Positions 9,290 to 31,330 of a stretch of DNA of 35,021 nt are shown here, in pieces. This DNA is from a virus, in IMG/VR virus record IMGVR_UViG_3300045999_007880, positions 1 through 35,021 of that record; one strand, written 5' to 3'. Position numbers and translations under genes: made by a program. Every line of letters begins with the position of its first letter. Within the stretch, counting starts at the first letter, position 1. The notes under the pieces are model-generated. The model made no database searches, was not told the origin of the DNA, and saw only the letters and a list, made by a program, of their open reading frames with translations.

Positions 9290-9403
9290 ATGCTGGCAAT
9301 TGTGCTGGGAGTTTCCTATCTGCCTCTAGCGCTTTGGGTAATTCACGAAGTGAAAAAGCCTGTGGAAGACGAAAGCCGAGTCTATGACAAAAATACTCAT
9401 TAG
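9290..9403 (+). CDS. Small single-span membrane protein
   Basis: 37 aa: MLAIVLGVSYLPLALWVIHEV then a charged tail (KKPVEDESRVYDKNTH). AGGAGAGG lies nine bases before ATG; an adjacent TTG is an alternative. Hydrophobic helix residues 2-19. Overlaps the next gene by 20 bp. The coding sequence holds a TTCAC-GAA-GTGAA hairpin. Confidence 0.5.
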   Translation: MLAIVLGVSYLPLALWVIHEVKKPVEDESRVYDKNTH

Positions 9404-17934: not shown

Positions 17935-18588
17935 ATGACATATGAAGAATTTGTGCTATCTAAAGTTAAACGTAAAGATGTAAAAAATTATGAATTAGTA
18001 TTAGAAGCAGTGCTACAAACAGATGTCTCTCCTAGTACTTATTTAATAGATAAAATTGACAGTAAAGCAGTTAGTAGAGGTCTTATAGCTATATTTGGAA
18101 AACCGTCTGATAAGTCGGTGGCTACGTCGTTTAACACGTACTTTATGAAACAGTATCGTAAAACTATATTAGGTGTAGAGGTTGATACTTTAAAAACCTG
18201 CAACACTTGTAAAAAAGAACTCCCTCTTGACAGTTTTTATACCGCGGGTCATAGCCGTAACGGAAAAAGACTTTACAGAGCACATTGTCGCCAGTGCATA
18301 GCTACTAATGAAGCTACTAAAAAATATGAGATTGTTTTAAAAATATTGGGTTACTATTCTTGTAAAATATGCGGGTATGATAGATGTAAAGCAGCACTAG
18401 ATTTTCATCATCTTGACCCCGATAAAAAAGAGTATAAAATATCTGACTTGAGGCACTCAGAAAAACATATTTTAATGGAAGAGCTACTCAAATGTATAAT
18501 CGTGTGTGCTAATTGCCACAGAGAAATACATCAAGGTATGCACTCAGAATTACTGCAAAAAGAAAAAGTACAAGCTCTGATGACGTAA
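17935..18588 (+). CDS. HNH endonuclease
   Basis: 217 aa. The N-terminal ~85 residues are helical. A first cysteine set TCNTCKKELPLDSFYT ... CRQC (about 83-122) resembles the treble-clef region of phage HNH/recombination-VII-like proteins, and the catalytic core is CKICGYDRC ... LDFHHLD ... CANCHREIHQG (145-200). AT-richer than neighbours and no Shine-Dalgarno site before ATG, as often in free-standing homing endonucleases. It stops right at the tmRNA gene, which may be its intron-less homing target region. Confidence 0.85.
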   Translation: MTYEEFVLSKVKRKDVKNYELVLEAVLQTDVSPSTYLIDKIDSKAVSRGLIAIFGKPSDKSVATSFNTYFMKQYRKTILGVEVDTLKTCNTCKKELPLDSFYTAGHSRNGKRLYRAHCRQCIATNEATKKYEIVLKILGYYSCKICGYDRCKAALDFHHLDPDKKEYKISDLRHSEKHILMEELLKCIIVCANCHREIHQGMHSELLQKEKVQALMT

Positions 18589-18885
18589 ATCAGACACAGG
18601 CTGGACTCGGCTTCGAAGCCGACGGCTCCACCATAGATAAACTGAACAGACATAGCCCCTGTAAAGCGGGGGAGCATGGTGGTAATGACAGTGTATCTTT
18701 GATGGGGCCGAAATGGGATCGACAGGTGTGAAAAAGGAAACTAGGAGCCAGTGCGCAAGCGACTGTAACCGCAAGAAACCAACAACTGCAAACGATAACT
18801 TTGCACCTTCTGCACAGGCTCTAGCAGCCTAATGTAAGGGGGAGGCCCCTGCCTAGCAACAGAAGTGGGGCACTTAGAGGAATAA
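18580..18885 (+). ncRNA. ssrA: Circularly permuted (two-piece) tmRNA
   Basis: The acceptor piece comes first: T-arm-like TCGGC-TTCGAA-GCCGA, then CGGCTCC (18623-18629) and ACCA to 18633. After a 70-base spacer, partly closed by CCACCAT/ATGGTGG, the coding piece begins GGGGCCG (18704-18710), which pairs perfectly with CGGCTCC, followed by the D-arm-like GGGATCGACAGG. The tag frame at 18788-18832 reads ANDNFAPSAQALAA and stop, ending in a protease-recognition ALAA. A GC-rich pseudoknot region (GCCCC/GGGGC) follows. tmRNA rescues stalled ribosomes and tags their products. Permuted genes are typical of alphaproteobacteria. Outer ends are approximate. Confidence 0.92.
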
Positions 18886-25915: not shown

Positions 25916-26103
25916 GAAACGAGGTTTCGTTGTCGGTGCTGGGGCGAAACGAAGTTTAGTGTGCGGCCTTGGCTGTTTGTTTTTAAACGAAGTTTAATCT
26001 GGGGCCTTGGCTGTTTGTTTTTAAACGAAGTTTAATCTGGGGCCTTGGCTGTTTGTTTTTAAACGAAGTTTAATCTGGGGCCTTGGCTAGGGCACGAAGT
26101 GCC
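25916..26103 (+). other. Cluster of GAA-triloop hairpins
   Basis: Six small hairpins: GAAAC-GAG-GTTTC (25916), AAAC-GAA-GTTT (25947), TTAAAC-GAA-GTTTAA (25983, 26021, 26059), GGCAC-GAA-GTGCC (26091). Five have the C-GAA-G loop known to make unusually stable DNA hairpins and found in phage origins such as that of phiX174. Noncoding; candidate origin or single-strand initiation sites. Confidence 0.75.
25963..26088. repeat. 38-bp tandem repeat, three copies plus a partial
   Basis: Units at 25963, 26001 and 26039 and a 12-base partial at 26077. Each holds GGCCTTGGCTGTTTG and a perfect hairpin TTAAAC-GAA-GTTTAA. First unit differs only in its first bases. There are no spacers, so it is not a CRISPR array. 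Confidence 0.95.
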
Positions 26104-26383: not shown

Positions 26384-26412
26384 AAAAACCCGGGACTTAC
26401 CCGGGTTTTTTA
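26384..26412 (-). terminator. Bidirectional terminator
   Basis: AAAAACCCGGG / CCCGGGTTTTT, 11-bp stem, five-base loop. On the minus strand the stem starts within the TAA of the small membrane gene; the flanking A and T runs allow termination in both directions. Confidence 0.85.
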
Positions 26413-26583
26413 GTTTTTATCGTTCTTTTTTAGGTAATAACTCATAAAATAAATTAATAGTAGAGGCCAGGTTAGCCCTAGCAGCAAACTTGCACTAAAG
26501 TTAGTCTCGCCGACAAGCCAGCCCAACCAAAAGTATGCTCCTGCAGTAGAGAACAGTGCAATTACAAGATATATGCTTAACAT
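26410..26583 (-). CDS. Small membrane protein
   Basis: 57 aa (MLSIYLVIALFSTAGAYFWL...), two hydrophobic helices (residues 3-22 and 28-48) and a basic tail (YYLKKNDKN). CAGGAGATTAA precedes ATG. It is the last gene of the minus-strand arm, ended by the terminator overlapping its stop. Confidence 0.6.
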   Translation of the reverse strand: MLSIYLVIALFSTAGAYFWLGWLVGETNFSASLLLGLTWPLLLIYFMSYYLKKNDKN

Positions 26584-26649
26584 TTAATCTCCTGAACCCG
26601 CAATGTGACTTCGTCACGTACGCGGCCACGGTTTGAATCACGTTTACGT

Positions 26650-26678
26650 TTGACACGTCGTCGAATTACTACTAGAAT
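26650..26678 (+). promoter_or_regulatory. Repeat promoter 1
   Basis: TTGACA, 17 bp, TAGAAT in repeat 1, pointing rightward into the minus-strand gene block. Confidence 0.6.
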
Positions 26679-26753
26679 CGGCGCTGCTGTGCAGTGGGGG
26701 CTCGCAATATGACTCTGTGCACAGTGCAACCACGCTTCAAAACATCTTTACGC

Positions 26754-26782
26754 TTGACAAGTCGTCGAAAGACTACTAAAAT
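26754..26782 (+). promoter_or_regulatory. Repeat promoter 2
   Basis: TTGACA, 17 bp, TAAAAT in repeat 2; the best -10 of the four. Confidence 0.6.
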
Positions 26783-26857
26783 AGGCGCAGGAGAGTAGAG
26801 GTAGCAAAAGATATGACTTCGTCATGTACGCGGCCACGGCTCAAATCGCCTTTCCAC

Positions 26858-26886
26858 TTGACAATGCGTCGTCGATCTACTACTAC
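26858..26886 (+). promoter_or_regulatory. Repeat promoter 3
   Basis: TTGACA, 17 bp, TACTAC in repeat 3; weak -10. Confidence 0.45.
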
Positions 26887-26961
26887 TGGCGCAGGGGAGT
26901 AGAGGTAGCAAAAGATATGACTTCGTCATGTACGCGTACTCCTCTCAAATCGCGTTTCCAC

Positions 26962-26990
26962 TTGACAACAAGTCGTCGAACTACTACTTT
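26962..26990 (+). promoter_or_regulatory. Repeat promoter 4
   Basis: TTGACA, 17 bp, TACTTT in repeat 4; weak to moderate -10. Confidence 0.45.
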
Positions 26991-27097
26991 GGCGCGCTGC
27001 AGTGCAGCGGGGGGAGAAAAAGTCAATCTTTTCAACGCGTTGGGAGGAGGGTGAAACAGCATGGAATCGTGGTGAGGGTGTAGATTAATGTTGAATT

Positions 27098-27141
27098 TCA
27101 AGCGCTTAGGGGGCCGGGCCCCGCGCCGGCTAACACCTTGA
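27098..27141. repeat. Intergenic GC palindrome copy 1
   Basis: Divergent copy (TCAAGCGCTTAG ... CTAACACCTTGA) directly abutting the stop of the minus gene at 27143. Confidence 0.7.
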
Positions 27142-27142
27142 T

Positions 27143-27337
27143 TTAGAAGGATTTTAGCAGGTCGGCGACAGTTCGCTCGAGTGTCTCGTTCTGGCGTTCA
27201 ATCTCGGCGATCTCAGCCTGTAGGCTTTCAATCTGCGCCAGCAGCTCGTTAACGCGAGCACGACGCTCGGTCATAATACCGCGCAACTCCTCTAAGAAAG
27301 AGTTGAGTCGCGCGGTAATCTCTGTATTAGTTGCCAT
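27143..27337 (-). CDS. Small coiled-coil protein
   Basis: 64 aa, almost entirely heptad helix (ITARLNSFLEELRGIMTERR ... AEIERQNETLERTV). Likely a dimeric coiled coil; function unknown. Starts one base after the stop of the gene at 27339. Confidence 0.65.
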   Translation of the reverse strand: MATNTEITARLNSFLEELRGIMTERRARVNELLAQIESLQAEIAEIERQNETLERTVADLLKSF

Positions 27338-28105: not shown

Positions 28106-28444
28106 TTAGGCTTGAGCAGCCTTGACAAACGCGATGACGGACGCAATCGCTTCCTTCGTCGCACCCATGAAACCCTCGACCGCAAACGGGGCGACGGCCT
28201 CAAGTTCGTTCAGAAGGTCTTTTTTGCTCGGACCTTCCTCACGCTTCGCCTTGGCAGCCTTCGGGGCAGCGACATAGGCGCCTTCCCGAACCAGCTTCGA
28301 CCGGACCGACCGGACCGGCTTGCCGAGTTCAGCCGCAATGGTCTCGAGACCATCGTTGCCGAGTTCCTCGTAACGGGCGAGCAGACGCTCGACCATTTCC
28401 GAGGTGTAGTTTTCCGCTTTCGCGGCCTTCGCACGTTCAGCCAT
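28106..28444 (-). CDS. Predicted HTH (Myb/SANT-like) DNA-binding protein, paralog A
   Basis: 112 aa. YTSEMVERLLARYEELG ... IAAELGKPVRSVRSKLVRE (residues 13-55) reads as a three-helix homeodomain-like HTH with the recognition helix RSVRSKL. A Lys/Ala-rich linker leads to a C-terminal helical domain (KKDLLNELEAVAPFAVEGFMG). It is clearly related to the product at 30253-30612, about half identical by eye, and the upstream regions are also alike, so the two arose by duplication. Likely a small transcription factor or nucleoid protein of the phage. Confidence 0.75.
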   Translation of the reverse strand: MAERAKAAKAENYTSEMVERLLARYEELGNDGLETIAAELGKPVRSVRSKLVREGAYVAAPKAAKAKREEGPSKKDLLNELEAVAPFAVEGFMGATKEAIASVIAFVKAAQA

Positions 28445-30252: not shown

Positions 30253-30612
30253 TTAAGCCGCAGTATCAGAGGCCGGAGCCTCAGCGTCCGCGTTCGCTTC
30301 CGCGAACGCGATGAGGTGGGCCAGCGCCTCTTTCGTGGCACCAGTCAGGCCGTCCACGGGGAACGGCACCATATCCTCGAGGATATTGAGCAGTTCCTTT
30401 TTCGACGGGCCTTCCACCTTGGCCGCCTTCACTTTGGGCGAGGCAACATAGACGCCCTCGCGCACAAGTTTCGAGCGGACCGAACGCACGGGCTTGCCAA
30501 TCGCTTCCGCGATAGTGTCAAGGCCGTCATTCCCGAGTTGCTCATACATATCGAGCATACGGGCCACCATTTCGTCGGTGTAGTTGGCGGGTTTAGTTTT
30601 CGCTTCAGCCAT
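30253..30612 (-). CDS. Predicted HTH (Myb/SANT-like) DNA-binding protein, paralog B
   Basis: 119 aa from the ATG behind AAAGGAGAACATC; the upstream in-frame extension covers the promoter. YTDEMVARMLDMYEQLG ... AIGKPVRSVRSKLVREG mirrors the paralog at 28106, including the recognition helix and the C-terminal GPSKKELLN and LTGATKEAL segments. The C-terminus adds an Ala/Glu-rich tail (NADAEAPASDTAA). Two copies with diverged linkers suggest either dosage or different operators. Confidence 0.75.
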   Translation of the reverse strand: MAEAKTKPANYTDEMVARMLDMYEQLGNDGLDTIAEAIGKPVRSVRSKLVREGVYVASPKVKAAKVEGPSKKELLNILEDMVPFPVDGLTGATKEALAHLIAFAEANADAEAPASDTAA

Positions 30613-30649
30613 GATGTTCTCCTTTGCTTGGCTGTCCTTCAGTAAGGTG

Positions 30650-30678
30650 TTTATCGCACAGGCCGAGGCAACATGCAA
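30650..30678 (-). promoter_or_regulatory. Minus-strand promoter
   Basis: TTGCAT, 17 bp ending TGC, GATAAA; upstream GCAAGAAAAATGTTT and ATCAAGGGCTTGG shared with the promoter of paralog A. Confidence 0.7.
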
Positions 30679-30740
30679 GAAAAATGTTTCCTGCAATATC
30701 AAGGGCTTGGGGTTTTGATGCAAAGTTTTTTTGTGTTTGT

Positions 30741-30829: not shown

Positions 30830-31330
30830 TTATCCAAAGACTCGAGCATTGCCATAGACTGAAGCAGTGCCAAAGACTGAAGCATTGCCATAGACTGAAG
30901 CATCGTCAAAGACTCGAGCATTGCCATAGACTGAAGCAGTGCCATAGACTGAAGCATCGTCAAAGACTGAAGCATCGTCAAAGACTCGAGTATCGTCAAA
31001 GACTGAAGCATTGCCATAGACTCGAGCATAGCCATAGACTCGAGCATTGCCATAGACATAAGCATTGCCATAGACATAAGCATCGTCAAAGATTGAAGCA
31101 TAGCCATAGACATAAGCATCGTCAAAGACTCGAGCATTGCCAAAGACTCGAGCATTGCCATAGACATAAGCATCGTCAAAGACTGAAGCATTGCCAAAGA
31201 CACAGGCATTAGGCCCGATATAGGTGGTGCTGGCAACAGTCGCCGTGTCAGCGACCCATCCACCCCCGTTAGAGTGTTGATGAGCAGGAACAAGGCCTTT
31301 ACCGTCTTGGAAGTCAAAAGTGCTAGTCAT
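30830..31330 (-). CDS. Hexapeptide-repeat (left-handed beta-helix) protein
   Basis: 166 aa. After ~35 residues (MTSTFDFQDGKGLVPAHQHS...) the chain is about 21 tandem hexads of the form A-x-V-[YF]-[GD]-[ND], for example ASVFDD, AYVYGN, ARVFGN. This [LIV]-G-x4-like periodicity predicts a left-handed beta helix. The 18-bp DNA repeat makes the length prone to change by slippage. No acyltransferase residues are seen, so a structural or DNA-mimic (pentapeptide-repeat-like) role is conceivable. GGGAGAATGAT precedes ATG; other frames are also open only because of the repeat. Confidence 0.75.
   Translation of the reverse strand: MTSTFDFQDGKGLVPAHQHSNGGGWVADTATVASTTYIGPNACVFGNASVFDDAYVYGNARVFGNARVFDDAYVYGYASIFDDAYVYGNAYVYGNARVYGYARVYGNASVFDDTRVFDDASVFDDASVYGTASVYGNARVFDDASVYGNASVFGTASVYGNARVFG
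30836..31204. repeat. 18-bp coding repeat array
   Basis: About 20 imperfect 18-bp units of the form CATAGACTGAAGCATTGC with AAAGACTCGAGCATCGTC variants, encoding the hexads of the beta-helix gene. Confidence 0.85.

Follow-up and report, generated by a model that had tools for sequence, protein, structure and literature searches.

Iterons and the tandem operator arrays of phages and plasmids are short, directional sites that are repeated in tandem and strongly conserved. They are the closest known kinds to the array described here, a likeness drawn from sequence and not a claim of membership: in both cases short, directional, tandem and conserved elements lie beside a gene for a DNA-binding protein. 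The array differs from them in that its units stand ~85-105 bp apart and have a variable interior, that no initiator has been identified, and that binding is putative. We describe this array as it occurs in a 35,021-nt stretch of viral DNA (hereafter the window), its counterparts in related phage contigs, and the explanations that may account for it.

The tandem array in the window and its surroundings

The array occupies positions 26602-27017 of the plus strand and consists of four tandem 104-bp units, a period also recovered by repeat finders. The hexamer TTGACA starts at 26650, 26754, 26858 and 26962, that is, in steps of exactly 104 bases. The first-pass annotation had spoken of four exact repeats, each with a rightward promoter and a conserved spacer; the stepping is indeed exact, but the units themselves are diverged copies, 65-81% identical (65% and 81% when compared with the reference unit). 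Unit 1 (26602-26705) opens with the mini-hairpin GTGACTTCGTCAC (26605-26617), and its TTGACA is followed after 17 bp by TAGAAT (26673-26678) and then CGGCGC. Unit 2 (26706-26809) is devoid of a mini-hairpin and has TAAAAT (26777-26782) at the same 17-bp distance, followed by AGGCGC. In unit 3 (26810-26913) the mini-hairpin ATGACTTCGTCAT (26813-26825) precedes TTGACA, GTCGTCGAT and CTACTACTACTGGCGC, and the position of the -10 hexamer is taken by TACTAC, which leaves this unit without a -10. Unit 4 (26914-27017) carries a second copy of ATGACTTCGTCAT (26917-26929), TTGACA and GTCGTCGAACTACTACTTTGGCGC, with TACTTT as a weak -10. The supposedly constant spacer is present as GTCGTCGAA in units 1, 2 and 4 but is replaced by GTCGTCGAT in unit 3, and units 3 and 4 show a 3-nt shift in its distance from TTGACA (repeat spacings of 104, 107 and 104). 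The hairpins said to accompany the repeats are genuine, each 13 nt long, and occur in units 1, 3 and 4. At the right-hand junction (27014-27035, plus strand), AGAAAAAGTCAATCTTTTCAA resembles AGAAAAGTCAATCTTTTCAA, which flanks a single-copy promoter at another site of this phage (coordinate 6037 of the union, see below). Since the array is also present in a near-identical contig from a separate assembly (L029/L122), it is not an artefact of one assembly.

The window and two near-identical contigs (G001 and G002) together form a phage union of at least 80 kb. Genes of the window run rightward from 1 to 24.5 kb, and a block of small leftward genes, presumed early from their size and arrangement, extends from 35 down to 27.1 kb. 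The rightward array faces this block and thus opposes the early genes, as had been proposed. It is placed between a GC-rich dyad (TTTCAAG..TTAG..CTAAC..CTTGA; 27095-27144), which itself lies past the end of the leftward gene before it, and a minus-strand gene for a 57-aa predicted membrane protein (26410-26583). The dyad, TTTCAAGG..TTAG..CTAACCCCTTGAAA, recurs in 11 copies between 27095 and 34240, separating most of the early genes; some copies run into T-runs, and a leftward sigma-70-like promoter usually stands behind a copy. The dyad is a candidate terminator or operator. The 57-aa gene, the next leftward gene after the array, has AGGAG before its ATG and no evident promoter of its own, and is followed by a bidirectional intrinsic-terminator-like hairpin (26384-26410). 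Further to the right, the minus strand encodes a phrog_1725-like helix-turn-helix (HTH) DNA-binding protein (28106-28444) and its paralogue (30253-30723). Another motif, GTTCACNTTTTGTTCC, is repeated in early intergenic regions of G001 (union ~3.4-6.5 kb) and occurs in tandem in contigs L162 and L172; it is a further candidate operator.

A directional element in related uncultured phages

Relatives of the HTH protein encoded at 28106-28444 were found in 42 contigs. Among 43 loci checked, a profile derived solely from the four units of the window matched about 17, almost always on the same strand, with E values of 1.3e-14 in L162, 1.6e-5 in L190 and below 1e-3 in L187, L199 and L173; the single full-length unit of L162 is 78% identical to unit 1 over 95 nt. 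Searching with the DNA pattern of the core retrieved 27 contig stretches in IMG/VR and no match in GTDB genomes or in named phages; the idea that plasmids or these two collections contain related DNA was rejected. Also set aside as chance matches were those of a broad TTGACA..GTCGTCGA pattern, found in 120 unrelated-looking stretches, and an 18-base match in L145, which is unrelated sequence. A refined family model recognises 63 elements in 34 sequences. These are contig fragments; since many relatives are near-duplicates or close to one another, the independent events are fewer than the counts suggest. All four window units are included, with E values between 8e-9 and 2e-3 (8e-9 for unit 3, the best, and 8e-7 for unit 4).

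These uncultured tailed-phage contigs carry one to four tandem copies of the same directional element. The family consensus reads CTTTYTACTTGACA, a variable interior, CTACTACT or CCACTCT, GGYGC, and a GC stem whose loop measures 3-9 nt; in short, CTTTYTACTTGACA..CTACTACTGGYGC plus GC stem. Over 11 relatives, nine of which were gathered via the neighbouring protein and not via the element, the 34-bp core of unit 1 is 99% identical, whereas identity is 56-66% in the spacer and in either flank. The array is absent from L124 and L125 (distant relatives of the virion gene). Our literature search, confined to open-licence papers, returned nothing matching the element, which is weak evidence of novelty. 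Judged from these comparisons, the array is one case of an undescribed, strongly conserved, directional non-coding element that many related environmental phages have next to their early genes.

A divergent gene of the HTH family lies within 425 bp of the element in all 12 testable contigs found by the DNA pattern alone (about eight distinct sequences), and in relatives one family member stands directly behind the elements. The element is located upstream of the leftward sigma-70 promoter of the HTH gene and always opposes that gene; the promoter itself (TTGCTY/TTGATY-17-TATAWT) lies between the two, its -35 often 43-46 nt from the element. Only some of the HTH paralogues of a phage, usually one, are so accompanied, the others being mostly without elements. 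The HTH region of the protein (VRSVRSKLVREG) is nearly invariant among relatives and takes the form of helices in a structural model, where residues 11-60 have block pLDDT values of 77-89; when this model was searched against the PDB, no match was confident, the hits being three-helix DNA-binding folds at E >0.3. The window, L162 and G006 depart from this layout, their arrays lying beyond the last HTH gene, towards the point of gene convergence. In the first two, 1-2 kb separates the array or unit from the HTH genes, which lie on its other side, and the gene found behind it encodes a small membrane protein instead. Because it is the 57-aa membrane protein, not the HTH protein, that is encoded behind the array of the window, the identity of the gene regulated there is a guess.

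Proposed binding sites, a possible rightward transcript and other readings

The conservation, fixed orientation and placement of the elements argue for a cis-acting regulatory array. The reading that we tentatively prefer, at a little under an even chance, is a directional, iteron-like stack of protein-binding sites at the edge of the early region that would control early transcription. The core of each unit would be a putative site for a protein and the array a stack of such sites; the binder would be the neighbouring HTH protein or a partner of it, the HTH family encoded nearby being the candidate. In relatives, the array would act from its place just upstream of the leftward promoter of the HTH gene. 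Some units (1 and 2 in the window, the first unit of L162 and the 'long' units elsewhere) would in addition carry a rightward sigma-70 promoter, from which a short antisense or non-coding RNA might be started towards the dyad or a terminator. Promoters would account for only some of the units, while putative binding sites would account for all of them. Of the possibilities raised at first pass, iteron-like binding sites fit the family best, being directional, tandem, conserved and upstream of a DNA-binding-protein gene; in all contigs the element keeps one orientation relative to the neighbouring gene. Against binding sites speak the asymmetric core and the variable stem loops, which would be less usual in the operator of a dimer than in RNA or single-stranded DNA, the distance and side of the HTH genes in the window and L162, and the site of G006, which has TTGC in place of TTGACA.

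The near-invariant 34-bp core is shared by a group of environmental phages, and no named relative carries the element in the collections searched. As it adjoins a small, multi-copy HTH protein family, it may offer a concrete protein-site pair and a marker of the early region of these phages.

The strong rival, somewhat unlikely in its own right yet clearly ahead of the remaining ones, holds that the array would serve above all as a rightward promoter of a discrete non-coding or antisense RNA, of which the downstream units, and the short units of other phages, would be RNA elements or motifs; it may coexist with the binding-site array. Promoter-like sequences are in excess in the window, TTGACA-N16-18-TANNNT occurring 6 times against 1.06 expected by chance, with 3 of the 6 inside the array. 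Units 1 and 2, the only ones with a good -10 at 17 bp, are the two top-scoring promoter-like sites within 24.5-35 kb and match a sigma-70 promoter at 11 of 12 hexamer positions. In L162, the closest relative, a perfect rightward TTGACA-17-TATAAT-CGGCGC (12 of 12 positions) stands at the orthologous place, and this promoter unit is followed by three more degenerate units and then a rightward intrinsic terminator, cccctaactccttgaagttagggg-CTTTTTT. A rightward, single-copy TTGACA-17-TAAAAT-CGGCGCC with similar borders is moreover found twice elsewhere in this phage, each time in another early intergenic region. The perfect promoter and terminator of L162 make a non-coding or antisense transcript plausible, and this part of the earlier proposal gains from units 1 and 2, though not from units 3 and 4, which have no good -10. 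In having a promoter directed against early genes and, in L162, a terminator after it, the array recalls the small antisense and non-coding RNAs of phages, from which it differs in lacking an Rfam family or a conserved fold, the transcript being putative.

Relatives differ in the room that they leave for a -10. In their 'short' units GGYGC follows TTGACA after 16-17 nt, with no space for the hexamer, whereas in 'long' units the interval is 23-27 nt; about 10 of the 12 distinct long units have a good -10, where chance would give 8%, and no short unit has one. A sigma-70 -35/-10 pair spaced by 16-18 bp is seen in units 1 and 2, in L162 and in the long units of relatives, is weak in unit 4, and is missing from unit 3 and from every short unit; the conserved core, furthermore, is longer than a promoter requires. 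Since a -10 would not fit in most relatives, the 'four rightward promoters' are not a conserved function. Relatives with short units only, having no rightward -10, also weigh against the RNA reading, as do the few rightward terminators (4 over ~20 kb, albeit against 0.2 in shuffles). The GC stem behind GGYGC keeps its pairing despite changes on both sides in the close relatives L182 and L180 (GGCGC-TAC-GCGCC versus GGTGC-TAC-GCACA), with a loop of variable length. By contrast, single-unit folds of the window units were no better than shuffles (z-scores of -1.3 to +2.0), and the idea that the four units share a conserved RNA structure was rejected; the consensus fold of the 11 relatives has almost no covariation support, and nothing in the array or element matched Rfam at the curated threshold. 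Should a rightward RNA exist, these phages would have a conserved antisense transcript directed against their early genes.

More ambitious, and improbable in our estimation, is a new class of phage control in which a phage protein would read the tandem sites together with C-GNA-G mini-hairpins, extruded in DNA or formed in RNA, and so time early transcription, the promoters of some units being secondary.

Two further readings appear more doubtful still, and equally so. For a replication origin with iterons one may cite the directional tandem repeats, the mini-hairpins and a strongly AT-rich stretch within 1 kb of the L162 array. Gene direction and skew disfavour it. An origin would be expected at a divergent boundary or GC-skew minimum with an AT-rich unwinding region, but the point immediately left of the array is one of gene convergence and of maximal cumulative GC skew, as would be expected near a terminus; the lowest-GC stretches of the 80-kb union lie elsewhere, and no initiator gene is recognised beside the array. 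The suggestion that the transcripts prime replication gains no support, on the same grounds. The array could otherwise be a neutral or selfish hairpin repeat spreading in intergenic DNA with no role; the same phage does harbour many mini-hairpins and a 38-bp tandem repeat that has one copy more in one assembly than in another, but orientation and position are fixed in divergent contigs and the core stays almost identical amid much more variable flanks.

The least probable reading by far, four tandem small genes on the plus strand (29-45 codons, e.g. MTSSCTRPRLKSPFHLTMRRRSTTTGAGE) or a basic peptide encoded by the opposite strand, draws on an ATG or GTG at the same place in every unit and on 3-nt indels, but was rejected for both strands. 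In a permutation test on substitutions between units, silent or conservative changes were not in excess in any of the six frames (9 silent codon differences against 20 expected in the plus reading). There is no protein-family match, and the opposite-strand ORF has no relative except in the near-identical contig.

Mini-hairpins and other features of the phage

Mini-hairpins of the C-GNA-G type, with stems of 5-7 bp and mostly an ACGAAGT apex, are strongly enriched in the window and in the 80-kb union. ACGAAGT sits at a stem apex in 17 of its 23 occurrences, against 0.36 expected; examples are found at 9342, 15773, 17663, 24506, 25984-26103, 26605, 26813, 26917 and 29289. The enrichment extends to most of the phage group, L124, L125 and L171 excepted. 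Promoters of the N4 virion RNA polymerase are hairpins, and the likeness lies in a 5-bp stem with a GNA triloop (ATGAC-GAA-GTCAT, minus strand). Unlike them, the mini-hairpins described here are scattered over many sites, within genes as well as between them and mostly on the sense strand, and a reading as N4-type promoters was rejected because the many copies inside genes on the sense strand have the wrong direction. No N4-type polymerase was recognised in the contigs examined, which are incomplete genomes: the largest ORF of the incomplete union is of at most 677 aa, and the large ORFs checked in relatives are tail or structural genes or unassigned.

Several other features of the window were noted. 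The 38-bp tandem repeat (25947-26088) lies in an 860-bp non-coding gap, contains an AAAC-GAA-GTTT mini-hairpin, and is present in 3.7 copies, with one more in G001. Coding repeats of 18 and 54 bp, both multiples of three, are located within a leftward ORF at 30834-31210. A phage RNA-binding protein (phrog_850, DUF2828-like) is encoded at 79-1518 and is up to 50% identical to proteins of many named phages. Finally, the phage possesses a permuted, two-piece tmRNA gene (18573-18832), which scores 104.5 bits against an Rfam threshold of 47.
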